Shown here one piece after another: positions 2,864-20,314 of a stretch of 20,314 nucleotides of DNA (the first letter of the stretch is position 1; every line of letters begins with the position of its first letter). Origin of the DNA: Spongospora subterranea (Eukaryota; Endomyxa; Phytomyxea; Plasmodiophorida; Plasmodiophoridae); NCBI GenBank assembly GCA_900404475.1, contig OUQQ01000380.1:1-20314 (forward strand), given 5' to 3'. Both the position numbers and the translations under genes were made by a program. A model generated the notes under the pieces. It had not been told where the DNA came from and searched no databases. It worked only from the letters and a program-made list of their open reading frames with translations.

Positions 2864-3099
2864 GGTAGTTTTTGCCATTGCCGAGTCGTCCTGGCCCCCC
2901 CCCCCCCCCCCCCCCCCCCCCCNCTCGAGATCTACTAGAAGTAATAAGCGAAACGATGTTTCGTGAGTTTTGTCGTTCGATGAACGAGCGAATCTATCGG
3001 AAATCCGTCAAACCAAAGTTGAACACAGTGCGCATTGGGTCCAGTGTGACTGATTGAGGTAGTTTTTGCCATTGCCGAGTCGTCCTGGCCCCCCCCCCC
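2730..3099. repeat. 194-bp-offset direct duplication around poly-C and an N
   Basis: The segment starting CTCGAGATCTACTAGAAG at 2730 recurs at 2924 and appears identical through the GAGTCGTCCTGG block before each C run. The first copy ends in 28 C followed by an N (2895-2923). The second ends in 11 C, a T and CCCC (3089-3104). The N at the junction suggests two reads or contigs that failed to collapse across the homopolymer, so this may be an assembly duplication rather than a biological one. Confidence 0.9.
2895..2923. repeat. Poly-C homopolymer ending in N
   Basis: Twenty-eight consecutive C residues are followed by one undetermined base. Such tracts stall polymerases and are a classic assembly break point. 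It lies between the possible terminal exon and the WD40 gene, that is, in the presumed promoter region of the latter. Confidence 0.95.
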
Positions 3100-3134
3100 T
3101 CCCCATCCGACAACGTCATAATAACGCTTCATCA

Positions 3135-4299: not shown

Positions 4300-4693
4300 A
4301 TCAGGGCGAACAACAAAATATATACGTAAATACAAAAACAGTAAATCCCAAATCATCGGCCAGATGTTTCAACCGTTCTTCAAAGTGGTGACCGCGATGT
4401 GTTTCGGTCCCTTTTTTCTGAGCAACGCCACGATCGTCCAACTCGGCAACCAATGCCCATCATCGTCACCATCACCATCGTCTGTTGGTTTCCGAACTTG
4501 TGTCACCAACTGGGGTGTTTCCACAATCGGTTTTAAGAGCCCAATAAGAAACGTTTAAAGTGGGAGTAAAACACAGCACCAGAGGACACACAGATTTGAC
4601 ACCATCTTCTAATTCATCAACCTAAAACCGATCATCCAGTGAACTCAGAAAACACTGGAGCGAGGTCTGAGCAGGAATTCCCTCTTTGCACTA
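4300..4693. other. WD40 3' flank, no gene seen
   Basis: This holds an A-rich stretch just after the WD40 stop (about 4314-4345), likely the 3' untranslated region, and a (CATCATCGTCACCATCAC)-type low-complexity patch near 4460-4480. A 92-codon plus-strand frame (4280-4558) shows no recognisable domain. Confidence 0.5.
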
Positions 4694-4728: not shown

Positions 4729-5345
4729 AACAGATGGCCCAAATACGATTGTGTGTCGATCACAGTGGGCCCTGAACAACAGTACGAACCGAGAACCGTT
4801 TCGTCTCGATCCCATCGATAACAGCCCAACGGGAGCCCAATGCTACACCACAATCGATTTTTGCGGACCCGTCAACGCCATTCGGTCCCAAGAACGCTCC
4901 CGCCCTCGATCCAACGATCAACGAACGAGGCGTTTTAAGAATTTCTATGGTTGTGGATGATATTTTTGATCAATGTCGCACCACCGATTGAGCAGGGAGG
5001 TCACGTTGAGGTCGTTCTGCAGAAGGAAGCGGGTTAGTCGTCCGCTCACGAAATGTGCTTGTGGTGTAAAATTCCTTCGGCTCCGGGGAAAACATCCGAC
5101 GTCACAACGTGGCGAACGGTGTTGAATGTGTTCCCTGGATTCGCCAATCTCTATCGAGACGTCATTGCAAATTATTTGCAGCTTGCGACGAGCATCTACG
5201 AGTTGACCGCGACGGGTGTGCCATGTTCGTGGCAATCGTATCACCAGGAAGCTGTTGCGGCGTTCGCATACGCTTTCACCAACGCCCCAATATTGGCCCA
5301 TTTTCGTGTCTGGCGACACTGGCGCTGGTCAATATCGCCATCGGC
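4694..5345 (+). pseudogene. Ty3/gypsy-type reverse transcriptase remnant
   Basis: Successive frames spell the order of a Ty3/gypsy reverse transcriptase. First comes a DG...C(V)D-YRALN-like region (4730-4790, frame 2, with WALNNST). Next is PIDN...GAQCYTTIDF, matching the PxIDD...FT-LDL block (4810-4865). Then, in frame 0, come PFGPKNAPA and VVDDIF (4878-4967), matching PFGLxNAP and the YxDD catalytic box. In frame 1 follow HVEVVLQ and the thumb and connection with FPGFANLYRD and NAPILAHF (4990-5305). At least two frameshifts (about 4870 and 4988), a TAG at 5035 and a deletion between blocks make it non-functional. The two catalytic Asp codons survive at 4956-4961. A TDAS-like RNase H start may follow near 5310. 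Confidence 0.75.
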
Positions 5346-5501
5346 ACGTCCCATCGCATTTCATTTGGAGGAGTTGCCGCCAGCAGGTCGAGATCAGTTC
5401 CACCAAACCGGAAGATGTGGGACCGAGATGGGGCTGCGGTGAGCGCGTTCGTGATCGCATCGGCCGCTTTCCGTGATGATGCGATTGCCATGAACATGGC
5501 A
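5219..5501. repeat. Inverted pair of RT connection segments
   Basis: The plus-strand segment 5219-5287 (TGCCATGTTCGTGGCAATCG onward) has a diverged reverse-complement partner at 5430-5501. Both encode the W-Q-S-x-H...A-F...LTxAP-like connection between RT and RNase H, the minus copy only after a frame change. The spacer is about 140 bp. Similarity is strongest over the first 25 bases and is otherwise moderate. Confidence 0.55.
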
Positions 5502-6116
5502 CATTTTCCAAATACGCGACGCATGATGAAAGAATAACTGGCAACCGCGGCAGCGCTCTTTCGCGTTGGCGCCATAGCAGCCCTCACAATGTCAATGATC
5601 ATGGATCGTTTTACTCGTCGAAGATTGCCCCCGGGTCGACAAAGGTGCACGATATCGTCATCCATCATCGTGCCGGGTCACTATCAGGTCGGCCAGACGC
5701 GCTCGCTCTCGAGGCGACCTGGATACGAGATTCAACATCATGACCTGGTCTGGCTTGTATCGAGGATATATTTCAGGAGATGTTTTTGTCTTTTTTGCGG
5801 TGGAATTGGTCACGGCGACGACAGTGTTCAATGGGATTTCCCACGACCTGTGGGTTCCGTATTTGACTAATCTGACAGAATGGCTCCTCGGCAGCGTCTT
5901 TCGAAATGTTTCGGCGATGGGTCAGAAGTGGACGAGCAAGAGCGAGCTGTTAGCCATAGCGACATTTCTTGAATGTCGGGAAAATTTCGCCATTTGTCAC
6001 AGATGGATCGGCTAAGGGGACTTCTCCTGGTTGCAAGGGGCGAAACCTCACGAAGGTGGAAGGCTATGGCTGCCTACATAAACAAAGTCACTGACACCAA
6101 AGGAGCGGTTATGGAC
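5502..6116 (+). pseudogene. Possible RNase H or unassigned retroelement remnant
   Basis: A plus-strand frame at 5740-6015 (91 codons) ends in a stretch with W-x(3)-S-ELLAIA, reminiscent of the E-LLAI helix in Ty3/gypsy RNase H. A neighbouring frame has a TDGSAKG-like piece near 5999. It lies about 400 bp downstream of the RT remnant on the same strand, where RNase H belongs. The rest of the frame is not recognisable, so the assignment is weak. It could be an unrelated open frame. Confidence 0.25.
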
Positions 6117-6385
6117 ACACGAAGTTACAGCAGTTTCTGGAAAACCTGTACAGAACTGTGAAAATGGATCAATACTGTAGTGTCGGATAATTCGTTGACA
6201 GATGAGGAAAATCGACTACCAAACGCCGATTTCCGCAATTGCAGATGGCGCGATGTTTCGCCGACGCACATACAAAGCATCCCTACGAGCGGGAAAGGGG
6301 CACAATTGACCAATCTGATTGTTCTTAGACCGGTTTTGATCCTTCTTCGTTTGTTGTAAAATTTCCAGAAACTGCTGTAATGGCC
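6117..6385. repeat. Inverted repeat with 19-bp perfect core
   Basis: TTACAGCAGTTTCTGGAAA (6125-6143) is the exact reverse complement of 6362-6380. The similarity continues inward at lower identity. Read outward-to-inward, both arms encode a related peptide starting LQQFLE and continuing to K-x-DQ, about 20 residues, on the plus strand (6117-6176) and the minus strand (6385-6329). This may be a gag N-terminal coiled-coil fragment. The loop is about 150-220 bp. Confidence 0.65.
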
Positions 6386-6399
6386 ATTGGCAATATCGT

Positions 6400-6994
6400 A
6401 GGTTCAAAACCGTTCTTCAGTTTTAGTCGGTGCATTTTCGTGGGCAGCCATGGCTTTGAGGCCTTCCACGTTCGTCAGTTGTTGCCCTGCAACAAAAAAC
6501 GTTGTCGATGCCGTTCTGATCTCATGCTGTCAATATCAACCCGGCCACGAACTCAAGCAAGTAAAACGCGCCGAAAAATGGTGTGTCCTTTGTCGCGACC
6601 GCCACAGTCAAGCTCATTGAGGCAGACACACCAGCTTCGTGTGTGTAAAATTCTGTCCAGTACGGCCTGTGTGTCTCACGATGGTTCAACGATCGACACA
6701 GCCGAAGCTCCCTAGAGCATCGCCAAGTCGCAGGCGATAATTTTGGGGTGGGAGAATGTCGAGTCTGCCACAGCGGGTGGGAGCAACAGCGCCCAGGGTC
6801 ATCGACGATCGCGACGCCGTTCCAGCTGATTCAGACACCCAATGAACAGACACATTCGCTATGGGAGGAATGCGACTCTTATGTTGACCCATTCAGCATT
6901 TTATATTGGAAAACTACTGGACGTCTTTACTGCACCTCAATTTTTCAGTACAGTAGTCATGAAATTATTGATGTAAAGTGGCGCTCGGAAAGAT
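6400..6994. other. No gene seen between repeats
   Basis: Open frames on both strands (for example plus 6380-6715, 111 codons) carry no motif I can name. No splice or promoter structure is evident. Confidence 0.5.
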
Positions 6995-7527
6995 GTTCAG
7001 GTTTGATCGACTTCTTCAAAAAAAAAGTGTTGTCGCCGTTGCTTTGAAAATATGTTGATTTTTTCCATGAAACCCTAGTAGATTTACGTGAAAACATTGG
7101 ATTCTGTCTCGCCTCATGTCGTGAATGTGCTGCCAACGATTTCGTTACCCACTGTTCTCGCCAGGGACAGATGGCGAAACGTATCACGAACGTTACGACT
7201 GGAGACGCGACACTGCCGCGGCCTCCCACAGCCAGGTGCCCAAAACCGTGAAATCTCTCGGTTCAGGTTTGATCGACTTCTTCAAAAAAGTGTTGCCGCC
7301 GTTGCTTTGAAAATATGTTGATTTCCCATGAAACCCTAGTAGATTGACGTCATTGGATCTCCCCTCATGTCGTGAATGTGTTGCCAACGATTTCGTTACT
7401 CACTGTTCTGGCCAGGGACAGATGGCGAAACGGGCGGATTCAACTTGGCGTATCGACTTACGACTGGTGGCGCGACACTGCCCCGCGGCCTCCCACAGCC
7501 AGGTGCCCAAATCCGTGACATCTCTCG
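6995..7527. repeat. 266-bp tandem duplication, two diverged copies
   Basis: Copy 1 spans 6995-7260 and copy 2 spans 7261-7527, both beginning GTTCAGGTTTGATCGACTTC and ending in a (G)TGA(A/C)ATCTCTCG block. They differ by substitutions and small indels (run of nine A versus six A, missing ATTTTTT and AAAACATT blocks in copy 2, and an extra GGCGGATTCAACTTGG-type insertion). That marks a real, ageing duplication rather than an assembly slip. Frames within it are broken and no domain is recognised. Confidence 0.9.
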
Positions 7528-7656
7528 GGCACTCGGAAGTCATCATGTTTTCTGAAACTGATCGATCAATGCAAGCAAGGAAGAGAGCCGAGGACTGGGA
7601 TACTCCAGAATTCGACATCACCGACTTCTAGGTAGTTCCGACGCAGATAAAGGGGT

Positions 7657-7864
7657 GTGCCTTTGGGCATTGATGGCGACTGTTGCTATCGCTATCGGAA
7701 AAAACCCGAAATTATGGGGGCCCGAATTAGCCATTTGGCAATCGGCGCGGTACGGTACCAAGACCCAACACTTTAAAGCAGGGGATTAATCGAAAGCCAT
7801 AATCGGGTTTTCTAAATATCGCCTCATAGCGATCGCTACAACTACCATCAATGGCCAAAGGCAC
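7657..7864. repeat. Diverged inverted repeat, arms about 75-80 bp
   Basis: The left arm 7657-7731 (GTGCCTTTGGGCATTGATGG...) pairs with the right arm 7784-7864 (...CCATCAATGGCCAAAGGCAC) at roughly 75-80 percent by eye, including a shared GAAAACCCGA-TTATGG block. The spacer is about 50 bp. It sits directly left of the larger LINE palindrome, and the right arm abuts the LINE 3' end. Confidence 0.6.
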
Positions 7865-7879
7865 TTTGTCTGTGTCAGG

Positions 7880-8437
7880 ATTATCTCCGTTGTTTATTAA
7901 CGATTGTACGCTGTCTACGCAGGGCTTCGCGTCTGAACGAGTAGGACGCCGACAGGAGTTGCTTCGGTTGAGCGCCTAGAACGGCCAGACGCTTCAGCAC
8001 CGCTCCGACGTGAGAGACAGGAATCCTGACGTGGTAGCGACGATGGGCGCGAAGGGGGCCAGGAACGCGTTGTCGTACTTGCGGTTCTTCTCAGGTTCTC
8101 GAGCTTCGAGCATCCGGCGAATAGCATTCTTTGTCACGGAGGTCGGCTTCTCGGCATGGGCGGGACGGGGGGAGGCCAGGATCGCCTGATTGTGGATTGT
8201 AGAGGTCGCGAACGAACGTCAAGTCAATACTGCCACAGACGCCGTTCGGGGCCGCTGGCCCGAGAACTCGAAGGTCGGCCCGTAGACTAGGGTTCGCGCC
8301 ATCGTGGGCTTTGGCTTGAACCGAGTCAGGAACGCGCAAATCTTATCGTGGCTGGTCTTGGCGGGTTGGTTCTGTCGGATTTCACAGCGATCGCTAGACG
8401 CAGCTTGGGCAAATCGTCGCCGCCTCTGCATTGATTA
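7880..8437 (-). pseudogene. LINE ORF2 C-terminal fragment, left palindrome arm
   Basis: Read on the minus strand from 8437 downward, alternating frames give parts typical of the C-terminal region of non-LTR retrotransposon polyproteins. These are a HDKICAFL helix, then RADLRV.G...SIDLTFV (the post-RT beta-strand region), then an EKNRKYDNAFLAPFAPIV segment. The last matches the K-x-x-KY...F-x-P-x-V signature that follows. Frames shift at least twice and stops are present, so it is dead. About 110 bp present here (8043-8155) are missing from the right arm. The element reads on beyond the palindrome to about 7880. LINE family assignment is by motif only. Confidence 0.6.
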
Positions 8438-8815
8438 GAAAGCGGTTGGTCAAGGCCGATCTTACTTGAGGGTTCGCCTTCTGATCAACGCAGAGGCGGC
8501 GACGATTTGCCCACGCTGCGTCTAGCGATCGCTGCGAAATCCGACAGAACCAACCCGCCGAGACCAGCCACGATAAGATTTGCGCGTTCCTAACTCGGTT
8601 CAAGCCAAAGCCCACGCTGACCGTGATGGCGCGAACCCTAGTCTACGGGCCGACCTTCGAGTTCTCGGGCCAGCGGCCCCGAACGGCGTCTGTGGCAATA
8701 TTGACTTGACGTTCGTTCGCGACCTCTACAATCCACAATCAGGCGATACTGGCCTCCCGCCGTCCGGCCCATCGCCGCTACCACATCCGGATTCCTGTCT
8801 CTCACGTCTGAGCGG
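8000..8815. repeat. Large palindrome (arms 438 and 334 bp)
   Basis: The left arm 8000-8437 and right arm 8482-8815 are reverse complements around a 44-bp spacer. Over the inner 265 bp I count five substitutions, about 98 percent identity, plus a 9-bp insertion in the right arm (GCTGACCGT near 8616). The right arm also lacks 113 bp that the left arm carries between two ATGGGC hexamers (8043-8048 and 8156-8161). That pattern fits a deletion between 6-bp direct repeats. The divergence argues against a simple amplification or assembly chimera. Confidence 0.93.
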
Positions 8816-8819
8816 CTGG
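8484..8819 (+). pseudogene. LINE ORF2 C-terminal fragment, right palindrome arm
   Basis: This mirrors the left-arm LINE fragment. On the plus strand it starts with an ICPRC cysteine pair, part of the zinc-knuckle region, then a HDKICAFL helix in another frame, then RADLRV and NIDLTFV. The distal part encoding the KNRKYD segment is deleted. In-frame stops occur at 8524 (TAG) and in the TAAG before 8580. The flank right of 8820 bears no relation to the flank left of 8000. Confidence 0.6.
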
Positions 8820-8864
8820 ATCCCAAGACCATGACATCGTGATCCGATACGTCAAGGGGGGCCA

Positions 8865-9120
8865 TTAGGAGGTCACCTTTGAATCGTTGGTCTTTTCCCA
8901 AGAAATCGAGTCATAATGTCGGTTCTGGGTTGTCATCAGCGTGTTTATGTTCAGGTTGCGACACGCGGAAAGTGTTTGTGTAAATGTCAGGATACCGGTA
9001 GCTTTGAGGAGAAACGGTCCGACAAATCGGTTTTCCAGCTTTGGGCAAGGCCGAGATCCAATCAGTGCTTTCGACCAAAACCGAACCGCCGATTGCGTGT
9101 TTGACTGCGTCGGAACGATG
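8865..9120 (-). pseudogene. Ty3/gypsy integrase C-terminal (GPF/Y) remnant
   Basis: The minus-strand frame contains KLENRFVGPFLLKATG, which matches the K-L-x-x-RF-x-GPF/Y module found C-terminal to the integrase core in many Ty3/gypsy polyproteins. It is followed by a beta-strand-like run (ILTFTQTL) and an N-I-N motif where such proteins have INPVFHVS. The upstream integrase core (H-H-C-C and D,D-35-E) is not visible. The frame runs without stop from 9230 to a stop at 8865, but nothing before about 9120 is recognisable. It is an isolated tail fragment on the strand opposite to the RT remnant. Confidence 0.55.
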
Positions 9121-9511
9121 CCTGTTGGCTGTTGCAGTTCACCGCTTGTCGGATTTGCGGCCGAATGCATAAATCGGTCTTTCTGGTAGATTTTTTTCCA
9201 GTTCTCATTGCAATCAGAGAAATTCCTCAAGATATATCTTCAAAATCAACAGTTTCCTCCATCATTTCCGGCCACAAACAAATCTCAACAGCGTTCCGTC
9301 GATGGTTCGAAAACTGCAATGATGAAAATGAGGGTCCCCTAACCCGTTCGATAACATGAAAGTTATCAATCGGACCCTGTCGACAATGAACCCAATCATC
9401 TTTACACAACTGGCCAGAATAGCAATAAATTGGGTCAAAAGCGTTGTGTATTTGAAAATACTTGTTGGATTCAGAATGAGCGTGATCGCGTGATTAGGAG
9501 TTCGGCGTTGG
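9121..9511. other. No gene seen
   Basis: This holds short open frames only (75 codons or fewer), none with a recognisable motif. It is A/T-richer than the coding region to the right and probably includes the 3' flank of the secreted-protein gene. Confidence 0.5.
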
Positions 9512-9569
9512 AATCATGGAGCGGGTTGTGACTTGGCGTAAAAATCATGGAGCAGGTTGTGATTTGGCG
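9512..9569 (-). repeat. 27-bp tandem repeat across the stop codon
   Basis: AATCATGGAGCAGGTTGTGA-type units lie at 9543-9569 (covering the last codons and stop of the secreted-protein gene) and 9512-9538 (just beyond the stop), with two differences in 27. The gene's C-terminal coding sequence was thus duplicated into its 3' untranslated region, or the reverse. Confidence 0.9.
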
Positions 9570-11641
9570 CCCCAGAGACTCGATTTCTGTAGTTTAAGAT
9601 AGGCGTATTCTAGCAAACCATAACGTCCACGGATTGCACGATAAACGACGTACTTCATCAAATCCACTAGTTGTTCTTCTTCGTCGGCTTCCATCGTGTC
9701 GACGATCAGCGCATTGTTAAAGCTCTGGACAGTGTCCTCCCATGTCTTCGCCACGACAATCTGCCGATATAGAGATGAAGGGAGGTCAGCGATGCAGAAC
9801 GAAGGGATATCTGCAAGAAGCGGCACTTGATGAAGGTCGTCAATTGGCAGCGCCAACGTAGCGCGTGCTCGATTGAGCGCGAACACGATCGCACAGAGTT
9901 GATGGAACCAACGGCGAGATGCTGATCTGTGGCCGAAGCCGATGGCGTCTGCGACATGCTCAGCTGTGGAGGATCTCCCTGAGAAATACTGAGTTGTGGG
10001 AATTTTCGCCATCAGCGCGGACAAGAAGGTGGATTTCTGACGGGGAAGAACCGGATCAGCTTCGGACGACTTATGCGACGATAGCGATCGTTGTAAAAAC
10101 ATTTCGATTTCTAACGCCACTTGGAAAATTCGCATTTTACAGCTGTTCGGAGCGAACTTCTTTATCTTGTCGTTGGGCATCGCCAGTTGGAGCAAAAGAG
10201 GTGGGTAGTTGGCATTCAAGGCGATGATGACGTTGAGCAGAGCCGGCAAGAACTCGGAATGGACCAGCTCTTTGTCTAATCGATGTTCAAAGGCGTAATA
10301 CAGCATCGGTAATAGGTTGTCCAGCGAAAACTCTTCTTCAACTTTCTCTGATTTATCGACTTTGCTCACGTCTCCCTCCATTGAACTCGCTTGCGCTTCC
10401 ACTAATCCATCGACTTTGCTCACGCCTCCCTCCTTCATCGCTGAAACAATGTCGGGGTAGTGCTTGTGAAGCAGGTTGATAGCTTCTTGCAGATGTGACA
10501 TGTCCCCTTTCAGCGCGTTGACCAATAAAGGGTTCAGTTTGAACATCAGACGCGCCGATTCATCGTCATTAGCCGAGAATGCGCCTTCGGCTTTGATTTC
10601 ATTGAAATGCCGAGAAATCCTGGACAACTTGTAAGTCAGGATAGAGTCGATGGCAAATTCGGGCAATGATTTGAATTGCTCAATACTGCTGAAATCGACG
10701 CGTTGGTTTAGAGACGACGCGAGAGGTGCAGGTTGTATCTTGGATAACAGGGTGATGACAGCCAAAACCAAACACAACTGGTCGACAGCTACCTTGGTTT
10801 CAGGGAGAAGGCCATCGTAGAGGGCACCTGTCTGCCCAAGACCTTCGTCGATTTCCTGGTTCTCCCACAGCTGATCGAGCAACGCCGACGACAGGTCCGG
10901 CTTACGGAAAAGCGGCAAACTAGCGAAGTTACGCTGAACCGCGATATCGGGAAAACGCTCGGGAGCATGATTCTCGGGCCGATCAGCTCGTGGGAATTTC
11001 ATTGAGAACTGGGGCACTCGCTTTGGATCGTACAAAGGTTTTGCGACGTGATTGGGCGAGGCGATTGAAACCGATTTAACGGGTCTGCCTTGGTCGCTTT
11101 TACCGTTGTCGCTAACGCGTGTTTTTCCCTTGGATGTACCGCTTGTTGATGCACCGCTTGCACTGATCATGATTCCAGACCCGCTGCTTGTCGGTAGGTC
11201 GCTCGCCCTTCTTCTGATGATAGGACTAGATTTGCTTTTCGCATAGCCTCGATGGTTGTTTGGACTAGCTTCGCCTCTTTTACCAAATTGGCTGCTGCTT
11301 GGGGCAGATTTGCTTTTGGCATAATAGGGAGTTGAATAGGCTGATCCACCAGAGCCTGGGCTTCCGTAAGCGTTATGAGACAGCGTATTTGGATTGACTG
11401 GACCACAGCGAACAAACAGGGTAAGCATTCGTTGTAAAAATGTCTTTTTCTTGGTCTTGAAGGGCGACACAAATGGGGATTCGGATTCATCTGAACTGTC
11501 GCCGTAATTCGAACAGGGCGAACAATCTTGCTTCACAGGATTGCCGTTGCTTGGTTGCGCTTGATTGCCCGCTCCATAGACATTCAATGCCAGCAGTGTA
11601 CTGGCGACAACTACAGCGACCAATGTGGAGATTCTGACCAT
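9545..11641 (-). CDS. Secreted protein of unknown family (698 aa)
   Basis: This is the longest intact ORF in the window, uninterrupted and intronless. The Met at 11639-11641 is chosen because it opens a textbook signal peptide (MVRIST, then a hydrophobic core to about residue 22, likely cleaved near VYG/AGN). The frame is open for 80 more codons upstream, but those lack a signal. Next come a CxxC at 40-43, a Ser/Gly/Lys-rich basic low-complexity region (about 60-240) with YAKSKS twice (107-112, 133-138), and then an alpha-helical C-terminal two-thirds (about 290-690). The helical part contains a short duplicated VSKVD element and an acidic spacer. It ends WGAKSQPAP. No enzyme motif is seen. 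A secreted or secretory-compartment effector-like protein is an inference. TGA stop at 9545-9547. Confidence 0.8.
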   Translation of the reverse strand: MVRISTLVAVVVASTLLALNVYGAGNQAQPSNGNPVKQDCSPCSNYGDSSDESESPFVSPFKTKKKTFLQRMLTLFVRCGPVNPNTLSHNAYGSPGSGGSAYSTPYYAKSKSAPSSSQFGKRGEASPNNHRGYAKSKSSPIIRRRASDLPTSSGSGIMISASGASTSGTSKGKTRVSDNGKSDQGRPVKSVSIASPNHVAKPLYDPKRVPQFSMKFPRADRPENHAPERFPDIAVQRNFASLPLFRKPDLSSALLDQLWENQEIDEGLGQTGALYDGLLPETKVAVDQLCLVLAVITLLSKIQPAPLASSLNQRVDFSSIEQFKSLPEFAIDSILTYKLSRISRHFNEIKAEGAFSANDDESARLMFKLNPLLVNALKGDMSHLQEAINLLHKHYPDIVSAMKEGGVSKVDGLVEAQASSMEGDVSKVDKSEKVEEEFSLDNLLPMLYYAFEHRLDKELVHSEFLPALLNVIIALNANYPPLLLQLAMPNDKIKKFAPNSCKMRIFQVALEIEMFLQRSLSSHKSSEADPVLPRQKSTFLSALMAKIPTTQYFSGRSSTAEHVADAIGFGHRSASRRWFHQLCAIVFALNRARATLALPIDDLHQVPLLADIPSFCIADLPSSLYRQIVVAKTWEDTVQSFNNALIVDTMEADEEEQLVDLMKYVVYRAIRGRYGLLEYAYLKLQKSSLWGAKSQPAP
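10356..10437 (-). repeat. Intragenic repeat encoding VSKVD twice
   Basis: ATCGACTTTGCTCACG(T/C)CTCCCTCC occurs at 10356-10380 and 10413-10437, a 57-bp (19-codon) period. It gives two GxVSKVD motifs flanking a short acidic linker in the 698-residue secreted protein. The unit keeps the frame. Confidence 0.85.
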
Positions 11642-12300
11642 AATGGCAGTTGTAGGTCTGTGGTTAAATCTATGTGAATGATTGGCAGATCTTGATGGGA
11701 TGGACGTCGACTTCGGATGCCGTAGAAAAGCCCGTAAACTCAGAATGTTCGTGCAAGAACTCTGGCCAAACCCTGCCGAACTCCGTGACACTCTAACCGC
11801 GCTACTTATAATATTAGCGCCACTGTCATCAAGGGTATTTTGTGTAACAGGTGATTGACTGACTGGAGACATCATCCACATCGCGTTGCATGACCGCCAG
11901 TCAAATCATGGCTAATCATGTGTAACGACAATGGACCCCAAAAACTGCGCGTCTTAATGTGGATGGTGTACATGCGCTAACGTTCCGAAATCACAAGAAC
12001 TGTATGATGGCCAGATCGCTCTGTCGGCTCGTGGGTTCTGTTCAGATCCATTTCGCTAATGCTGGATACTCTGGCGACTTTCTCCCCATTAACGGCGTTT
12101 TTGCAGAGGATCAAAGCATTTATACGTCAATTTTCTGTTTTTTTATAAACCACTGAGCCTTACATCATGAGATAATGCTGTCCATGGCTTCATTCGGGTG
12201 CGTCTTTTTCGAACGCGACCCAGCACTTCCTGTGTATCCTCTTATAGGTATGCAATGGCCAACGCACCGGTAAGGTAGCGCCATGCCCTCAATGCCGACA
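11642..12300. other. 5' flank of secreted-protein gene; no gene seen
   Basis: The minus-strand side (11642-11881) is an open extension of the secreted-protein frame, but is more likely promoter and 5' untranslated sequence because the signal peptide begins at 11641. From 11882 to 12300 I see only short frames without motifs. Confidence 0.5.
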
Positions 12301-12310
12301 CACGACGAAC

Positions 12311-12667
12311 ATGGACACTGTTAGGAACGTAACACGGAACGTAACACTGTGGTTCCAGCCATTACTGGTAAGTCCGGAACCGACGAAGGGATTCCCTACT
12401 CTCTTGTATGGTTGCCGACAAAAATTCGCCACCGTGCGTCTCATCTCGAATTTGTTCCTGTTTATTAGATCGTATCGCCACTCCGTTACTCACCATGCCC
12501 TCTTCCCCATCCTCGTGGCGTTACGCAGCCATGTTCCTCGCGGCGAAACCAACGACGCCCTCAATGAAATCCTCAAAGCGCTGGCGAATTTACAAGCTAG
12601 CGTTGCCACCATGGGTCAGCGTTTGAGTACATGGTCCTTCAGGTACAAGAAAGACAAGTTATATTGA
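12311..12667 (+). pseudogene. Open frame with coiled-coil, possible gag N-terminus
   Basis: A 118-codon frame with no recognised domain overall. Its C-terminal third (ALNEILKALANLQASV and onward) has the heptad-like spacing often seen at the N-terminus of Ty3/gypsy gag proteins. A tiny 13-bp tandem (GGAACGTAACAC) lies near its start at about 12325-12350. It could equally be a chance ORF. Confidence 0.2.
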
Positions 12668-12796
12668 TGCCAAAGCTGTAGCTATGGATTTCAACAGCCG
12701 CAGTTGGCCATCGAGTTTTTGGATCAACGAATATCAACAATCGCTAAGAACGAAATCTCTACTTGGGCCGAGCCGACACATGAAGTACCCTCAGGC

Positions 12797-12867
12797 GCTC
12801 ACCTTCGGATGAAGCTCTGGTTTCTGGAGCTTTTTTACGGATGCTTCCAATAGCACCCGTATGACCC
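12797..12867. repeat. Rearranged copy of sequence at 14349-14431
   Basis: Bases 12797-12838 match 14390-14431 directly (GCTCACC...ATGAAGC...GGTTTCTGGAG, roughly three quarters identical). The next bases, 12839-12867 (GGATGCTTCCAATAGCACCC), match 14353-14382 in reverse complement. In the second locus both blocks lie on the same strand in the order B-A. Here A is followed by inverted B. The 14.35-kb copy also has a 7-bp insertion (CCTATTG). Confidence 0.6.
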
Positions 12868-13433
12868 CTGCCCTTCTCGATGGCACTGTTCCAACTCCAA
12901 CTTGTCTTGACCAAGATGTAAATACTGACAATTGAGGCTGGTGACGATCCCTCGTATAATCTTGTTGAAATCGGGTGTGTGTCGATCCGGTTGAAGATAC
13001 TGTTGAGTGCCCATCCGAAACCATTGCTTCGAATATTTGCATTGCGGCCGGTTCGCGCTTTGCCACATGTGAAGTATGCTGTCTACCGTGAAGGAACTCC
13101 CCCATCCGATCCATGGCCCGACCGTTAAAGTCTGGCAGCGAGGAAATATTTATTGCACATTCAAAGACTCCGTTGTCAAAACGGATAAAAGAGGTATTAA
13201 GTCAACCTGTACTTGGTCAATGGATTTTACCTTTGATAGACCCTCTTCAGAATACATTATCACCAGCAGCGGCCAAGACCACAATCATGAGATTGATACT
13301 TATAATATAACTCCCGTCGGTGGACTGAAACAAGAATTTTTTTTTGACGTGGATCTTGATGCAAGCGAGCGTGAATTAATTCATAGTTTGCTCGCTAAAA
13401 TTTACCGTTGTCTAAGGTATCCGTTGTTTGCAC

Positions 13434-13503
13434 GTCTACAGTAAATAAGATTACTGAGAGCCCATCCAATCAGATTAGGGAAGGATCAAATCGTGGTAAA
13501 AAG
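13434..13503 (+). other. Probable intron 1 of the MULE gene
   Basis: A GTCTAC donor and an AAAAAG acceptor would join the zinc-finger exon to the next protein-like frame in phase, skipping the TAA at 13440 and at 13497. An alternative acceptor three bases later (TAG at 13504-13506) also keeps the phase. The donor is weak, so the boundary is tentative. Confidence 0.35.
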
Positions 13504-13676
13504 TAGTCGACTGGCCTCTTGTCCAGGAAAATCCGACGCGGAAAAGAATTGCATTTTGGCAAGATCCGGATTGTATGACCAAGTTCATGGAAGCGGGCTA
13601 TGATCTTCGGGCTGCTGGAGGTGTTTTTAAGTATGCTATAGACATGCCGCAACGTCTATCAACTGTTTACTTGCAG

Positions 13677-13729
13677 GTGTCAATCATCAATGTTTCGTTA
13701 TCTCATCATTTTGTTTACCTATGGTTCAG
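13677..13729 (+). other. Intron 2 of the MULE gene (53 bp)
   Basis: GTGTCA...TATGGTTCAG between TTGCAG and ACTGTTCAAATG. Both exon ends are on codon boundaries, and the joined frame runs from the FKYAIDMPQRL segment into the DGT catalytic block. The size matches the 52-bp WD40 intron. Confidence 0.65.
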
Positions 13730-13878
13730 ACTGTTCAAATGTCGCAATACGCCACAGTTTATGGCGACTTTTCTATTGTTGATGGTACCCATAACACCAC
13801 CCCCTATAATTTTTAAGTTGATGCCGTTTACCAACGTTAATTGCCTGGGTAAGTGTGTCATAAATCAAATCAATATAT

Positions 13879-14172
13879 GTGAACGCGAAGCGCAAGAGCG
13901 GACCGGTGTAAAAAAAGAACCCATTGGTCAAGCAACGCAATGGCAATCGTTCGAATGTCATCCGCCCATCGACCATGGGCGAGCACCTTGCAGGCGGTCG
14001 CAAAGATTTATGCAAACTCAATAAGGCTTGTTCAGGTTCGGGGGTTTGCGTTTCTGTATGCGACCGCCTGCAAGGTGCTCGCCCATGGTCTGACATTCGA
14101 ACGATTGCCATTGCGTTGCTTGACCAGTGGGTTCTTTTCTTACACCAATCCGCTCTTGCGCTTCGCGTTCAC
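13879..14172. repeat. Fold-back repeat (arms 139 and 129 bp, 26-bp loop)
   Basis: The left arm 13879-14017 starts GTGAACGCGAAGCG. The right arm 14044-14172 ends CGCTTCGCGTTCAC. Apart from a 10-bp gap (TCCGCCCATC, 13961-13970, missing on the right), the outer 124 bp differ at only four positions, all transitions. Near the loop pairing becomes patchy but stays in register to GCAAAC/GTTTGC. Both strands can encode the same peptide start (EREAQER), so either arm may have been a short coding piece. It lies just after a MULE exon donor site. Confidence 0.92.
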
Positions 14173-14226
14173 CCATGGTTGATGGGCGGATGACATTCGA
14201 ACGATTGCCATTGCGTTGCTTGACCA
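14173..14226. repeat. Third copy of the fold-back unit
   Basis: CCATGGTTGATGGGCGGATGACATTCG...TTGACCA repeats, in the right-arm orientation, the segment at 14083-14126. It retains the 10-bp piece (GATGGGCGGA side) that the right arm lost. It is joined exactly at the outer end of the right arm, giving the order left arm, loop, right arm, partial right arm. Confidence 0.88.
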
Positions 14227-14229
14227 AAA

Positions 14230-14538
14230 ATGCCTGTGGCGGGGAATATACGTTCGGGTGAAAAACAAAACGGCACGTACACCCCCCGCCACAGGGATTT
14301 AGGGATAGATACCTGCCCGACCTGTGGCAGATTCTGCCACGAACGTACACTGTATGGGTGCTATTGCCTATTGGAAGCACCCACAGACGGCTCACCATCC
14401 CATGAAGCACGGGTTTCTGGAGTTTTTCGACGAGGATGGCAATTGCCACAAAGGACCGGAGATGCTGTCATATTCGATAGTTTGATTTACCATCAGGCTC
14501 CGCGATTTGTTGGCGAGTTGGATGGAATATCGGAGTAG
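14230..14538 (+). pseudogene. Open frame, weak resemblance to dioxygenase fold
   Basis: A 102-codon frame with a Cys-rich middle (CPTCGRFCHE) and an end reading GDAVIFDSLIYHQAP. The latter resembles the GD-x-x-x-FDSxxxH strand of 2-oxoglutarate/Fe(II) oxygenases of the PhyH type. The N-terminal HxD motif is not evident, and a 7-bp insertion near 14366 has probably shifted the frame. A block of it recurs, rearranged, at 12797-12867. The function is unproven and the similarity may be chance. Confidence 0.2.
14233..14295. repeat. Hairpin with 12-bp perfect stem
   Basis: CCTGTGGCGGGG (14233-14244) and CCCCGCCACAGG (14284-14295) are perfect complements around a 39-nt loop. A weaker inner ACGT pairing is present. 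This adds another hairpin directly after the fold-back cluster. Confidence 0.85.
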
Positions 14539-14709
14539 CGGCTGTAGAGCCGGCGGAGTAGCGTACGCTTGTCGAAATATCAAGGGAATTCAACTTGGCG
14601 GCGGAATGCGATTGTCAATGGATTTCAAACTATCACTAATAGTAATCAGTTAGATTTTGTTTTCCAACCGAACCCGACTGTTTATCTGTTTCTTCGCTGT
14701 ACTATAATC

Positions 14710-15070
14710 GACCCCAAACGCTCCAATGTGTCGTGGTGGACATCACTATTGAAGTCTCTTCCCGCCAAATAAGAACGAGTGCACTGATTGATTGTGGCGC
14801 GACATCAGATTTCATTGACCGAGCGTTTGTTGGCCGACGCGCAATTTCATGTCGTCCCAAACTCATTCCTGTGGCTGTCAAAGTAGTAGATGGACGACGT
14901 CTTCCACCGATAACCCACGAATGACCACCTCGCTGACAGGGTTCTTTCAGGATTTTATCGCAATGCACGTGATCGAATCACCAAATCATAATGTTATTCT
15001 GGGAATCGGAAACAACAGCGTGTATTCAGGATGGTTGGATTGCGTGCCCGACGATCGGGGCAGAGCGGCG
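14710..15070 (+). pseudogene. Ty3/gypsy retropepsin (aspartic protease) remnant
   Basis: The frame has the strand VVDITIEV, then ALIDCGATSDFID, which corresponds to the catalytic ALIDSGATxxFI loop of gypsy proteases with the Ser/Thr replaced by Cys (the catalytic Asp is kept). Next comes VDGRRLPPITHE, where gypsy proteases have VxDGxP...ITH. After a frameshift near 14920 it resumes with ESPNHNVILGIG, matching the SPxYDIILGxxWL flap-side block. It reads toward a gag remnant that lies on the opposite strand, so the natural gag-protease order is broken. Non-functional. Confidence 0.65.
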
Positions 15071-15265
15071 ATGACATGTCCTGCTTGTCGGCAATACATA
15101 CATAAACCGAAGTCCAAGCAATGAGGACGAATTTCAGGAGTAAATCGCGAGCGTATCTGAGAATTGGCGATGGTGAACAGTGTTTTACTTTTCGATCGGG
15201 TACCGGAAGGCCAAGAGCTTGGCCTTAGCTGTCATAGCCTTTGGCGTATCTAATTCAGATTTCCT

Positions 15266-15752
15266 CTAGGCGCTCGGCCAGTGGCGGGTGTAATGATTTG
15301 CAAAAAGCTCTCTCTCGCTCATGCCTAACCCTCCTGTGGCAGCTTCAGCCTCATCTTGACGGGTCGGGAACTCGCGAATGTGCTGCTCAGGATCTCCAGT
15401 TTGTTTACAATCTTCAAATCGTTGCTCAGCTTCTGCAGCGGTATATTGTGGAAAAAACAGCTTCAGCTTGGCGCTGGCCTCAGCGAACGGCGGTTCCGGT
15501 GACATTCGACGGACGATCCTCTGGGGTTCGCCTTGCAAGTTTGCGAGTAGCAGCCGGCGAACGTGTTGGGGCATGGGTCTGGGCTCGATTGTGGCGGGTC
15601 CAACATGTAAAAATAGCCATCACCGCTCGCTGGCACTCAGGTGGCCTGTACCGTCGAACGGTTGAGCTCGATACACTTTGTCATTGTCTTCGACAGCAAC
15701 AAAGTTTTCATCCTGTGTCGACTCGGCTCGAGTAGAGATTTCATAATCTCAA
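15266..15752 (-). pseudogene. Ty3/gypsy gag remnant
   Basis: The minus-strand frame reads AQPFDGTGHLSASER, then a TGA (15620-15622), then QHVRRLLLANLQGEPQ, the FAEA...LKLFFPQYTAAEAEQRF segment, CKQTGDPEQHIREF and MSERELFA. This is the standard order of the Ty3/gypsy gag (retrotrans_gag) core: the PxFDGTGD entry, a helix ending at a processing-like GE, W/F-x(3)-A-x-L...F, LKQxG-x(2)-x-x-Y/HI-x-EF, and a Met-Ser-Glu helix. There is one in-frame stop and no nucleocapsid CCHC after the TAG at 15266-15268. It might extend upstream toward 16511 but that part is unrecognised. Confidence 0.6.
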
Positions 15753-17433
15753 ATGTTTTGAACGACTGGACACAAACTGGTGTCAGACTGTGTGGTTTGA
15801 CCGTCTATTGGTTGGTTCGTGAAAGAGACATAGAGGTCAACCGAGTTCGACCTGATAGGTCTCGCTGGATTTTCTTCTTTACGTACAGTGGATCATTTTG
15901 GAACGCCATCATAAGCCTACTCTGCCAATGGTTTTGGCCCTATAATGTTGGCAACTATTCAAGGGCGTGATTCGCCNGCGCAGAGTTGGAATCAAAGCAG
16001 ACAAAGCCTAAATGCTATATATGACCTATCAAGAACGAATTCATCTCGCCAAAACCTGGCGGTTTTCTTGCCCCACAAATCCCGCAACTAACCAGAAAAA
16101 CAGCAGCAAGCAACAAACTCCCAAGACAAACAAAAGGGGGATGCAAACGAGGAAAACACTTGAAAACGAGATGGCTCAATAGAGACAGAAAGAAGCATTC
16201 ACCACCCTGAAAGAAGAACGTGCTTTTAGGGCGGTATCTTCAGCTTTCGCATCTTCGTTTGTTTCCTTGGTTGCTGACCTGTTTGTCTGTCATGGGAATG
16301 TGCTGCCTGTTGCTTTTTGATCTGGTTGGTTGCGGGATTCATGAGGCGAGGAGACGTCGCAGACCGCCCCGCTTTGGGCGGCGAATTCCGGTTTTTGCTT
16401 AACTGGACCGCAACCTGAGCGTTTAGCGAGCAAGTCCTTGAATACCACAACTATAGCATCGCGATCTGCACCAGCGCTACCGCCATAAAGTTTCTCATTG
16501 TTCTCATGCATTCAGCCGCAAGTCCTGCTCGTCGAGCCACCGCAACGGCCATCCATGACGTGCTGTCGCACTCGTCATCTTCTCGGTTTCCAAGTTGAAC
16601 ATTCTTTGTCCCAATGTGAAGAAATGTCCAAACCTTGAGGTAATCAGCCCATTTTGTCTCAATCGCAAACCCTCAGCGCTCGCCTTGGTTTGTCTGATAG
16701 TGGGCCCTTCAGGAAATGAATACTTTTTCCAGCGACAAGACCTGAGTTCCACCCCAGATTGGATCACAATTGGGCTCCATTTGGCGTGGAAAATGGTCTC
16801 ACCAACAGAACGTCTTCATTTGTCATACATTCGCTTGTGTAGTATGACATTGACCATACCTGCCAAGAGCAATGGCTTCTCTCGAGTGCCAATCACCAAG
16901 TTTTCGACAGGCATGGAAGGTCTGATAAAATCTCAATTCCCTGCTTTGTTGAACTCAGCGTTTTCCAAACCGATAATCGCGGGTGTATGATCACCTGTAT
17001 ATGTCATAGAAGCCAACATCTCTTGGTTTCGTCAGCTACCGAGAGAAACACATTTGCTGAAGCAGTTTTCAATCAGATTTTTCATGGCCGGTTTCAGACG
17101 GCATCAACAGCCCCGAGATCAGTTCACGTGGATGTTCACCCTTCTGGATCATAAACGGTGCTATATAGCATTTCAAATTCTGATAACCCGAGCAATGTCA
17201 AACCAAGCTACCTGTAATCTCCTACAAGGATTCGCTATGTAGCTTTCTCATTCAAGTTGTCAACCTTGATTGACTTCGGAGTCGTTGCCAACGAGACCCA
17301 TAGTTCTGCACGGGCAAAATAGGCAGCTTGAAATTTGCAGAGCAGACGTCATTTATTATCAACTGATATCGTCGGGTAGGATTGTTGGAATTTACCAGTA
17401 CCAAAAACATTGGATGGGTCCAGGAAAAAACAA
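15753..17433. other. Long stretch without a recognised gene
   Basis: An N lies at 15977. A minus-strand frame starting at 16511 has a basic, Gln/Lys-rich low-complexity stretch resembling a gag N-terminus, but nothing firm. On the minus strand from about 16988 down to 16504 one reading phase is protein-like for about 160 codons, broken by two TGA codons (near 16925 and 16820). I do not recognise it. A plus-strand 131-codon frame (16595-16990) overlaps it. No splice structure could be fixed. Confidence 0.45.
17425..17430 (-). terminator. RNA polymerase III terminator for tRNA-Ser
   Basis: A run of six T on the minus strand lies three bases past the end of the mature tRNA. This fits pol III termination and supports the tRNA being a transcribed gene. 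Confidence 0.8.
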
Positions 17434-17514
17434 AGTCAACGACGAGATTTGAACTCGCGCGGGCAAGCCCAATCGATTTCTAATCGATCTCCTTAACCAC
17501 TCGGACACATTGAC
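17434..17514 (-). tRNA. tRNA-Ser(AGA)
   Basis: It reads 5' to 3' on the minus strand. The acceptor stem is GTCAATG with CGTTGAC (one T-G wobble). The D arm is TCC...GGA with GTGGTTAAG in the loop, which is the A box. The anticodon stem ATCGA/TCGAT encloses TTAGAAA (anticodon AGA at 17479-17481). A long variable arm with the GGGC-TT-GCCC stem follows, as required for a class II Ser tRNA. The T arm GCGAG/CTCGT has loop TTCAAAT (B box GTTCAAATC). No intron is present and no CCA is encoded. It decodes UCU (after A-to-I modification, UCU, UCC and UCA). The base after the acceptor stem is T, whereas eukaryotic Ser tRNAs normally carry a G discriminator. Confidence 0.92.
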
Positions 17515-18003
17515 ATTATTGAACTTTCTCATCAGCAAGTTTGATACGAATCCCGACTAATTTGTGATCAAGATTTGTCAAGTTCATCCCATGACGAGTG
17601 TAAAACGATTTGGGTTGCATGAATTGGGTGTTAGTCTGTTGGTGTTAACACCCGAAAACCAGTATATGCACTTGGTGTTTACAAATCACCAAATATGACT
17701 GATGTCAGAGTGAAATGTTTCATAAAACAGCCAAGACGGTTTTGGAATGCTTTGGGTGGTCGAAGTACCACAATTGGTGTTTTCATTGTCTTCCATCCGA
17801 GATTGAAGGTAAAACCTCCGTCGCGACCTCGTCGTTCCTGACGGCTTGATTTAACAAATTCGGCGGAATCACAAACCACATTGATGCTGCGTTTTCTTTA
17901 TGTTGTGACCTCAACGATGTCGGATGAACTCTATCTGATATCTTGTTGAAAAGCCAATCTGCAAAGAGAGCAAAAAAAACTGGAAATTTGTTGTGCTTTG
18001 TAT
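17515..18003. other. Flank of tRNA; possible last exon at 17783-17930
   Basis: At 17636-17690 the plus strand has GTGTTAGTCTGTTGGTGTTAAC and GGTGTTTAC, short GGTGTT-type repeats of unknown meaning. On the minus strand a frame from 17930 to a TGA at 17783 (48 codons) would be the last exon of the multi-exon gene to the right, if its third intron is used (GTGTGT at 18025 to ATAG at 17931). That splice is uncertain. Confidence 0.35.
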
Positions 18004-18637
18004 TCAAAACTCTTGAAGAACACACCTGTTCAAAAGGTCGTCTTTGAGCGCTAACCCAAGGGAAGCTGGTGTAAACTCTTCTTCATCAATGGCTGCTTGC
18101 AGGCATTGTCGAACAATAGGGTTGGATTTGATGCTGCACCAACTCTCGTTCGGCATTTGTGACTCGCCTACTGACCAGACGGCGTTCCCCTCATTCGAAA
18201 TAATCGCTGCAACTCAGGCTTTTTGTTTGCCTTTCATTTGACACAATATGCACCGATATCCCTATTTGAGGCTTCGTCAGCGACGGTTTCTTCGTAAGAC
18301 GCTCCGTTGTTTTCTTCACAATTTTCAGTATCGCATGGCTGCTGCTGCCGACGAGTACTGCTTGCGCTCGTTGACCCTAATCCGATATCAACAATTTGCT
18401 GCAACAAAGTATGACAAATGATATGCGTATGGGAGTTTTTGTAGAGACTATGAGCAAACTCTGTAACCAGAAGGAAGTGTGAACGTTAAGATGCTTACCC
18501 AGCGCAGGCATGATGGACGGCTTCATGCCGTCGTAATACAGGCCACCCCCTGAGGTAGTATCAACCCTGTGAAATAAAACCCGTTGTACATGATCATGGC
18601 GAATAACGAATATTCGACATCCCTCAACAAGATCCGC
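18004..18637 (-). CDS. Candidate multi-exon gene, unknown protein
   Basis: Three open blocks on the minus strand join in phase through two consensus introns: 18637-18499, 18460-18245 and 18206 down to the TGA at 18004-18006. The blocks are 139, 216 and about 203 bp. The first follows a TAG acceptor (18638-18640) and contains RIFVIRH, which echoes the RHG entry of histidine phosphatases but lacks the next residues, so I do not claim that family. The second has a His-rich helix and a Ser/Arg/Gln linker. The third is acidic and helical (AIDEEEFTPASLG). An alternative third intron (18025-17931) would extend the protein to 17783. No start codon is fixed; earlier exons must lie above 18638. A chance run of frames cannot be excluded. 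Confidence 0.4.
18207..18244 (-). other. 38-bp intron
   Basis: GTGTCAAATG...AGCCTGAGTTGCAG, with a CCTGAG branch-like sequence close to the acceptor. It joins a phase-1 exon end to a phase-matched exon, removing the TGA that would otherwise end the upstream frame near 18239. Confidence 0.45.
18461..18498 (-). other. 38-bp intron
   Basis: GTAAGCATCTTAAC...CTTCTGGTTACAG, with a good donor, a CTTAAC branch-like sequence and a pyrimidine-rich acceptor. The exons join at phase 1. Unspliced, the frame stops. A second intron of the same length follows downstream. Confidence 0.5.
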
Positions 18638-18989
18638 CTATCGATGTGTTCGCAAGTTTCGTCAGGCTTGGACAGACGGTCTCGACTCGGAGTAATGCCG
18701 GTGCAACCTGAAGTGTGAACCGTTTCTGTCCTTCAGAACCGAAACTACAATAAAGTTCGAGCTACCTTATCCAACATCTCTACTTCCCAATGCGAGAACG
18801 GGGCCCGCTAGCTTCGCTATAACAGTAGCGTCCCTGCTCGCTATAGGACAGGTGCCCTGATTGGGGATGCTACTTCAGAACTCCTCAGTTGTAAGATCTA
18901 GGAACCGCTCGCTCATTGTTACCATTTCTGGCCTACAAGTGCCAATTCTTAAACACGAATGAGAATCATCATAACAAGGATCCTCATCA
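18638..18989. other. Region between candidate gene and MULE remnant
   Basis: No gene is resolved. A minus-strand frame through 18720-18560 is open for about 60 codons in a phase different from the exon call and may be an alternative exon. Near 18810-18850 there is GCTAGCTTCGCTATAACAGTAGCG, which has a partial inverted repeat. Confidence 0.4.
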
Positions 18990-19062
18990 GAACGGATTAA
19001 CACAACCGGAAGCGATCCATCTCCACCCCTCTCATAAGGCGGTGGCCCTACACAAGCACGAG

Positions 19063-19192
19063 CGCAACGCTTGTTGCTGATTATTACGAACACAAAATTT
19101 CGTTCACACACACCGGCAATCACAACCATCCTAGACCGCATCCTACTTGACTAAAACCGTCCGTCCACGCATCGCTGAAACAGATTGTCGAA
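19063..19192 (+). pseudogene. MULE zinc-finger fragment, plus-strand copy
   Basis: The plus strand reads ATLVADYYEHKISFTHTGN, then HNHPRPHP, a TGA, and the SLKQIVE helix. It is clearly homologous to the longer minus-strand MULE remnant immediately to the right, over about 125 bp. Sequence left of 19063 shows only hints of the upstream Cys motifs. The fragment stops at a 10-bp palindrome (19183-19210) where it meets the inverted copy. Confidence 0.65.
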
Positions 19193-19921
19193 AATTCGCG
19201 TTCGACAATCGAGTTTGATGCTGCTTGTAGCAGTCCGTTTTGCCCCAGGCAGAGATGTTATTTTTGGAAAACCAATCAATTTACTAATGTGCAGAGTTCC
19301 CACAGATGGACTCGTAGCGGTGCCTATCAACAACGACTTCGGGTTGAGCTCGGGAGCGATCTCGACAATCTGTTTCAGCGATGAATGGGTGGATGGTGTT
19401 ACTCGGATAGGATGCGGTCTAGAATGGTTGTGATTGCCGATGTGTGTAAACGATATTTTGTGATCGTGATAATCAGCGGCAAGCGTTGCATGGCACTTAA
19501 CATGCACGAGACCAAGTTGTTGAACAGCGCATAGTCCCTGAGAAAGACGGGGGTCACAGCCTTTGAACTTGTTCCTTGGCGGGATCTGGGCCGCTCAAAG
19601 AAGACACAACTTTCAATATGACAATCATAGACCCCGAGGGAACTCTTCCTGATTTTTTTTGCTCGACTTTGTTCGATAGAAACGATGCTCAACAAAGCGT
19701 CGGCCAATCGCAATAGAAACTGTTTCCCAGCCACGTCAAAACAACCATTGCCCAACCAGCCGTAATGTCAATCGCAGAGTAGTTGTCTGGAGTTCGAACT
19801 CAAGACAACATTTATCGCTCGGAACCTCATCCATGACGTTGGAAGCAGGCTCAGAAGAAGACCCTTTGTCTGGAACCTGCTCTACAGCGTTGGAACTTGG
19901 CTCAGAAAAAGAAACTTGTCC
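19151..19921 (-). pseudogene. Second MULE-type zinc-finger transposase N-terminus
   Basis: Read from 19921 downward there is an acidic Ser/Pro-rich leader with a 17-residue tandem repeat, then GVYDCHIESCVFFERPR (a C-x4-C finger half). A frameshift near 19530 follows, then VHVKCHATLAADY, HKISFTHIGNHNHSRPHPIRV and SLKQIVEIAPELNPKSLLIG. The C-C...H-x-C...H-x-H arrangement is a FLYWCH/MULE-like DNA-binding domain followed by the helical region that precedes the DDE core in Mutator-like transposases. The DDE core is not present. It differs from the FAR1-like MULE at 13 kb. At least two frame breaks (about 19750 and 19530) make it a pseudogene. Family naming is by motif, without a search. Confidence 0.55.
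19183..19210. repeat. Perfect 10-bp hairpin at the inversion junction
   Basis: GATTGTCGAA (19183-19192) and TTCGACAATC (19201-19210) are perfect complements around an 8-base spacer, located exactly where the plus-sense MULE fragment gives way to the minus-sense copy. Confidence 0.9.
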
Positions 19922-19922
19922 T
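19821..19922 (-). repeat. 51-bp in-frame tandem repeat
   Basis: Two units, 19821-19871 and 19872-19922, each begin GGAACCT on the plus strand and contain the GTTGGAA and GGCTCAGAA blocks. On the minus strand they encode two 17-residue units of the pattern SEPxSNxxxxVPxxK. The period is a multiple of three, so the repeat was made while the frame was under selection or by chance. Confidence 0.8.
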
Positions 19923-20314
19923 CAAACCCAGCGATGTAAGATCCGACTCCAAAGTCATCTCCTCGACCCAGTATTTTGAGCAACGACAGCCATCGTTGCG
20001 TACAGATTGTCGTTAAACAGTGAGGTATCATTTCGAGACGCAACGCCTAGTTCTGCTGGTGCCGGTCGCCTTGATGGCGATAGAGTAAACCTGAAAGGGG
20101 CTGTTCCCTGTCACCCATTTCTACAGTCATTTCTACCTTTCTGGGGTTCACAGTTGAGCAACCGCGCGCGGCCAGCGTCCCCGTCGAGCGGGAATGGTGC
20201 GCGGCCACTGGACAGACCAAGTCAAGCCAAGATACAGTCGCCCAGTGGTGTCCGGCTCTGCTCAACTCAACAAGATTTCCTTTGCACCTGGGTTTACACC
20301 CACCGTTCACAAAG
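19923..20314. other. Right edge, no gene identified
   Basis: A minus-strand 87-codon frame (20047-20310) in a locally G/C-rich patch shows no recognisable motif and may continue beyond the window. Confidence 0.4.

Follow-up and report, generated by a model that had tools for sequence, protein, structure and literature searches.

Close inverted duplications in a Spongospora subterranea contig as probable scars of recurrent fold-back or template switching

The question addressed here is what produced the head-to-head duplications in a contig of the plasmodiophorid Spongospora subterranea (GenBank OUQQ01000380.1, hereafter C456), which was analysed in its entirety (20,314 nt; referred to as the window) and belongs to an assembly of 20.59 Mb in 679 contigs. 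At several points of this contig, a segment is followed closely by its own reverse complement, an arrangement that we term a fold-back and describe as two arms separated by a spacer, or loop. Our analysis indicated that these pairs are probably scars of recurrent short-range inverted duplication via fold-back or template switching. The basic process is already known in yeast and human, and what is notable here is its density and arm size.

Inverted pairs in the window and in a genome sample

Inverted pairs were detected by self-BLAST with a threshold of 40 bits, at which short arms are invisible, and the arms were evaluated by local shuffles (500 per site), with the window shuffled 50 times under a first-order Markov model as control. 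The real window contained nine inverted pairs of at least 40 bits, seven of them with spacers below 300 nt; in the 50 shuffled windows, no pair reached that score. Likewise, the local scores at 5.2, 6.1, 7.66, 16.07 and 19.1 kb were reached in none of the 500 shuffles made for each site. Six of the seven sites named in the initial annotation were thus real inverted duplications with close arms, the site at 12.8 kb was not, and a further fold-back was found at 16.07–16.35 kb. At 12.8 kb, the score of the interval 12700–13100 was equalled in 91 of 500 shuffles, and this candidate was rejected; the block consists of a direct repeat (12782–12834/14374–14427) and a segment, 12752–12783, whose inverted match lies 2.9 kb away at 15711–15742.

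Three of the fold-backs were defined by their arms, with the left arm on the plus and the right arm on the minus strand. These were fold-back 1, which is old (5217–5321 and 5395–5503, with 73–75% identity over the core 5217–5289/5429–5503), fold-back 3 (7637–7717 and 7797–7880, 82% over the core 7657–7695/7826–7864) and the additional one (16067–16155 and 16262–16350, 76%). In the remaining four, a parental side and a derived arm could be told apart by the comparisons described below. In fold-back 4, the parental side on the plus strand (7886–8474) comprises a flank, the left arm in two pieces (8000–8048 and 8152–8444) and a 30-nt loop (8445–8474), and is followed on the minus strand by the derived arm (8475–8815), an inverted copy of 8444–8152 and then of 8048–8000 that does not contain the approximately 100 nt between its two copied pieces. 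Here, the inner match (8152–8444/8475–8777, across the 30-nt spacer) was 96% identical when ungapped, the palindrome as a whole was 91% identical in a gapped alignment, and the outer piece corresponded to 8000–8048/8767–8815.

In fold-back 5, ungapped identity was 96.5% for 13879–14002/14059–14172, and gapped identity was 82% across the entire palindrome. Its left, derived arm on the minus strand (13855–14002) extends further out than the right arm, and its parental side on the plus strand (14017–14172) includes part of the spacer and the right arm (14059–14172). A third copy, at 14169–14227 on the plus strand, is direct to the right arm, with 36 nt identical, and inverted to 13924–13982 of the left arm (97%). 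In fold-back 6, the left, derived arm (19064–19191, minus strand) is 86% identical to the right arm (19362–19489), which opens a parental side on the plus strand that runs on to 20128. Between both arms lies a mosaic spacer (19192–19361, plus strand), of which 19193–19271 matched another contig (C288:555–632, 92%). In fold-back 2 (6030–6143/6362–6493), the BLAST match was confined to 19 identical nt (35.6 bits, E 0.008); although below 40 bits, it was accepted because none of 500 shuffles reached its local score and because a relative was found on contig C217. Its left, derived arm (5926–6143) lies on the minus strand, and its parental side on the plus strand (6238–6493) consists of the end of the spacer and the right arm (6362–6493).

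The density of such pairs was estimated from 20 contigs (roughly one in 35), each represented by its first 10 kb and together amounting to approximately 1% of the assembly, in which contigs are possibly collapsed at repeats. Two of these stretches consisted entirely of N, one mostly and two partly, leaving 18 stretches readable at least in part and 168,597 readable bases. Direct pairs flanking a single N, two in the sample and one in the window, were dropped as assembly artefacts. An initial shuffle count (4 inverted and 0 direct pairs in 60 shuffles) was replaced by an arm-based count, since a palindrome is scored on both of its arms.

In this sample, 16 inverted pairs of at least 40 bits were found, nine of them 0–300 nt apart, four at 300–1000 nt and three beyond, and nine of the 20 stretches bore at least one. 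Thirteen of the 16 lay within 1 kb, compared with about 22% expected under random placement (p=8e-7), and no inverted pair of at least 40 bits appeared when the sample was shuffled five times (842,985 bases in all). BLAST identity across the 21 close inverted pairs of sample and window ranged from 70 to 97%. This excess over random placement upheld the earlier proposal of a recurrent local inverted duplication that acts on different sequences and has left pairs covering a wide range of identities. The sample also contained 26 direct pairs, of which 18 overlapped or were at most 1 kb apart, so that inverted pairs made up 13 of 31 nearby duplications. The initial annotation had proposed a comparison of inverted with direct repeats and shuffled controls; inverted pairs did exceed the shuffles and were closer than random, but direct pairs were equally common. 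Inverted pairs were also more diverged than direct ones (p=0.024, sample and window together). Detectable scars occurred about once per 13 kb of the sample, which, by rough extrapolation from 1% of the assembly, would correspond to about a thousand or more in the whole genome. On contig C542, three fold-backs lie within approximately 1.6 kb (L035 1490–1957 and 2328–2530; L036 2294–2649).

Parental arms, derived arms and rival explanations

Relatives on other contigs made it possible to ask which arm is the original. All seven genome queries that bore fold-backs matched other contigs; the DNA searches skip very common words, and the numbers of relatives are therefore lower bounds. The traced fold-backs sit in low-copy repeated sequence, and, as all queries were fold-back-bearing DNA, no preference for repeats is implied. 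In six comparisons, one arm was contiguous with the ancestral flank or spacer and the other was a derived copy. For fold-back 4, contig C259 was collinear with 7886–8092 and 8346–8474, with 43 nt in place of 8093–8345; because C259 tracks the flank, the inner portion of the left arm and the loop of 30 nt as far as 8474, the right arm is the derived one. For fold-back 2, C217:7531–7777 was collinear with 6238–6306 and 6372–6493, and 5926–6126 is an inverted copy of this contig (C217:7879–7676). The left arm was likewise derived in fold-back 5, where C601:1513–1675 was collinear with 14017–14172, and in fold-back 6, where C278 was collinear with 19288–20128, including the spacer portion 19288–19361. 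Conversely, the window itself holds, at 17665–18596 on the plus strand, an unfolded relative of a large palindrome on C288 (668–1587), and a fold-back at C1:5394–6470 had relatives without the fold on C460 and C406, the first of which was collinear with C1 from 5259 to 5857, with no interruption at the outer end of the left arm.

Other relatives were folded, at different points. C10:7882–8353 and C140:3885–4696 belong to one family, in which C140 is folded around 4234–4358 and C10 at a point equivalent to approximately 4490–4525 of C140. Contig C315 has fold-backs of its own, and its relatives C207:18891–19271 and C411:29350–29553 are palindromic elsewhere in the shared sequence. Four of the eight other contigs matched by C315 showed oppositely oriented neighbouring matches that overlapped in the query (C207, C411, C83 and C410), with C83 and C410 judged from the match table alone. 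Fold points that differ within one family fit recurrent events and do not fit an element with fixed ends.

Among the rival explanations, the one that survived best is that two insertions of the same family happened to land close together in opposite orientation. The many decayed repeats of the genome (71 matches to reverse transcriptase with E ≤ 0.001, many with stops, next to four MULE matches) would favour such coincidences, and the oldest pair, at 5.2–5.5 kb, could have arisen in this way. The distance distribution of inverted pairs speaks against it, as does the loop of fold-back 4, which stays collinear with its parental arm until the switch occurs at 8474, and we consider chance improbable as a general explanation.

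It is slightly less probable still that the pairs are fold-back or MITE-like transposons, mobilized as units bounded by long terminal inverted repeats. Palindromes of 0.3–1 kb would fit such elements, families of which have been reported from root-knot nematodes and Drosophila, and both arms of one of the C542 fold-backs (1490–1957) share 41–44 nt with the window spacer at 19209–19252, a possible terminal repeat. Against this, relatives were unfolded at the same point or folded elsewhere, the homology of C460 does not stop at the outer boundary of the C1 fold-back, and few relatives, as a lower bound, were found per query. The earlier argument that classic fold-back transposons with fixed ends fail to account for these pairs was thereby supported.

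Functional hairpins, retained as sources of double-stranded or small RNA, are very unlikely, even though the youngest arms (96%) could presumably pair over about 300 nt. This was examined in a hand-chosen set of 26 aligned fold-backs, composed of nine from the window, 11 of the 13 close sample pairs (L008 3853/4427 and L017 684/834 being omitted) and six from loci of relatives. Substitutions pooled over the set amounted to 195 transitions and 171 transversions, without the strand bias expected if G-U pairs were tolerated, and p<0.05 for such a bias was obtained in just one of the 26. A six-frame search of the genome revealed no Piwi domain, although introns or divergence could conceal one. As neither G-U strand bias nor a Piwi domain was detected, we infer that the fold-backs are neutral scars.

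Finally, inverted chimaeras from amplification or assembly are the least credible source, since, although amplification can generate artificial palindromes (PMC6218980) and contig ends are duplicated next to single Ns in this assembly, arm divergence in the 21 close pairs of sample and window amounts to 3–30% and involves gaps as well as both transitions and transversions, and none of these pairs contains an N.

Spacers, junctions and a possible route

An uncopied spacer was present in all 26 aligned fold-backs, ranging from 30 to 859 nt (BLAST ends may enlarge the old ones) and measuring 30–256 nt in 20 of them, and arm sizes ranged from 29 to 457 nt. A short-range inverted duplication would explain this organization as follows. 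Where the DNA is broken or a fork has stalled, a single strand would fold back, or the polymerase would switch to the nearby opposite strand; roughly 30 to 450 nt would then be copied backwards, and synthesis would rejoin the chromosome, leaving a parental arm, an uncopied loop and an inverted arm. The direct third copy at 14169–14227 would fit serial template switching. As regards the enzymatic route, break fold-back and fork template switching would both be compatible with the data, which do not discriminate between them.

Several observations weigh against this reading or limit it. The sample covered contig starts exclusively, in one genome, and counts within one stretch are partly dependent. 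Within 1 kb, sample and window together held 21 inverted and 21 direct pairs, and the bias may be toward local duplication generally, in either orientation. Some relatives that are unfolded at the point compared carry small inverted pairs in other places, namely C460 (34 nt, 330 apart) and C278 and C259 (38–43 nt). Junction homology, assessed by eye, was mixed, as a short inverted match was seen at 19.1–19.5 kb, whereas 8474/8475 had no such match. The genome yielded matches to Ku and to the DNA-binding domain of Mre11, the latter with internal stops that may represent an intron, and they indicate no repair defect; CtIP/Sae2 was outside this search. Lastly, approximately 2.7 kb of loops contained two 8-bp stems (in C10 and C288), compared with about one expected.

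The last of these points bears on the earlier suggestion of template switching at short palindromes, of which the local process was supported, while the palindrome stays a putative trigger. The 8-bp stem in the C10 loop also occurs within the arms of C140 (perfect in the left, with one mismatch in the right), and 8-bp stems with 6–20-nt loops occur at 0.33 per kb in the sample. Loops were slightly more structured than control stretches (mean z of -0.73, n=21, versus -0.24, n=63), a difference due in part to loops in which remnants of an arm persist (C288, C542). With stems at about chance frequency and loops only slightly more structured than the controls, loop stems were dropped as evidence for a trigger.

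Several published reports allowed a comparison with known systems. In yeast, hairpin fold-back inversions likewise leave an uncopied loop between the original and the inverted copy, and loops are larger in the Mre11 and Sae2 wild type, with a median of 36 nt; these were selected gross rearrangements with secondary rearrangement, whereas those described here are small, interstitial and mostly old (PMC7467729). Human inverted duplications similarly show a single-copy (disomic) spacer between the non-inverted and the inverted copy, but with spacers of 766–70,466 bp and very large arms, compared with 30–859 nt and 29–457 nt here, and inverted microhomology of 2–8 bp was found at 13 of 21 sequenced human junctions, in contrast to its inconsistent presence in our set (PMC3907307). 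Short-range template switching in great apes also yields local templated inverted copies, and some of the ancestral sites had prior hairpin potential; in the gold-standard set, the copied segments had a median of 12 and a maximum of 128 nt, while those reported here measured 29–457 nt, short ones being below our threshold (PMC7954356). In Caenorhabditis elegans, inverted neighbours are likewise a common form of new duplicate, although those cases are gene duplicates and the cases traced here lie in decayed or unnamed repeats (PMC2728529, PMC4546093).

On this basis, we tentatively suggest that, in this lineage, large-loop fold-back duplication with arms of approximately 30–460 nt might rival tandem duplication as a source of local copies, in a size class between short template switches and chromosome-scale fold-backs, although we would not place this at even odds. 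No report of a comparable fold-back density in a protist was found in our literature searches, which does not prove that none exists. If the density holds assembly-wide, the genome records hundreds or more independent fold-back events, with relatives unfolded at the same point for comparison, and would make it possible to measure the size of loops, the homology at junctions and how inverted copies survive outside selected laboratory systems. It would also caution that an inverted repeat of this size does not suffice to indicate a transposon. A similar density in other protists of like genome size would leave the process standing but make it ordinary.

Element labels and neighbouring features

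The initial annotation had assigned some of the fold-back arms to a reverse-transcriptase connection domain, a LINE C-terminus and a MULE finger, and these labels found no support in a Pfam scan of 20 open reading frames (ORFs) of the window, in which no transposon domain rose above the cut-off. Below it, RVP_2 was matched at 14646–14921 (E 0.054) and Ig_NOMO at 19402–19767 (E 0.016). Relatives of 5649–5753 and 5111–5257 lie approximately 0.6 and 1.1–1.2 kb, respectively, from a weak, sub-cut-off reverse-transcriptase match on C522, which makes a retroelement origin of this block plausible from sequence. At C44:2560–3226, two reverse-transcriptase pieces lie on opposite strands approximately 155 nt apart, with overlapping profile ranges; judged by this arrangement, the locus is possibly another fold-back.

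The sole ORF of those scanned with a Pfam match above the cut-off belongs to a WD40 gene (3126 to approximately 4.3 kb), whose exon was at most 45% identical to the best 120 of 286 relatives, which came from diverse eukaryotes and metagenomes. A tRNA-Ser lies at 17434–17514 on the minus strand. Also on the minus strand lies a stop-to-stop ORF of 786 aa (9548–11905), the likely start of which is followed, as judged by eye, by a stretch resembling a signal peptide. It had no Pfam match, and none of the 7992 candidates scored for a 690-residue part of it proved to be a relative.

Near-identical direct copies flanked a single N at two points of the sample (L009 at about 6034 and L022 at about 2441) and at one of the window, where 2730–2910 and 2924–3104 surround an N at 2923 beside a poly-C run. 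In these places, the assembler probably placed overlapping ends of contigs one after the other instead of merging them. Tandem duplications were also present in the window at 6995–7528 (approximately 266 nt twice, 84%) and at 177–295 (59 nt twice, identical).

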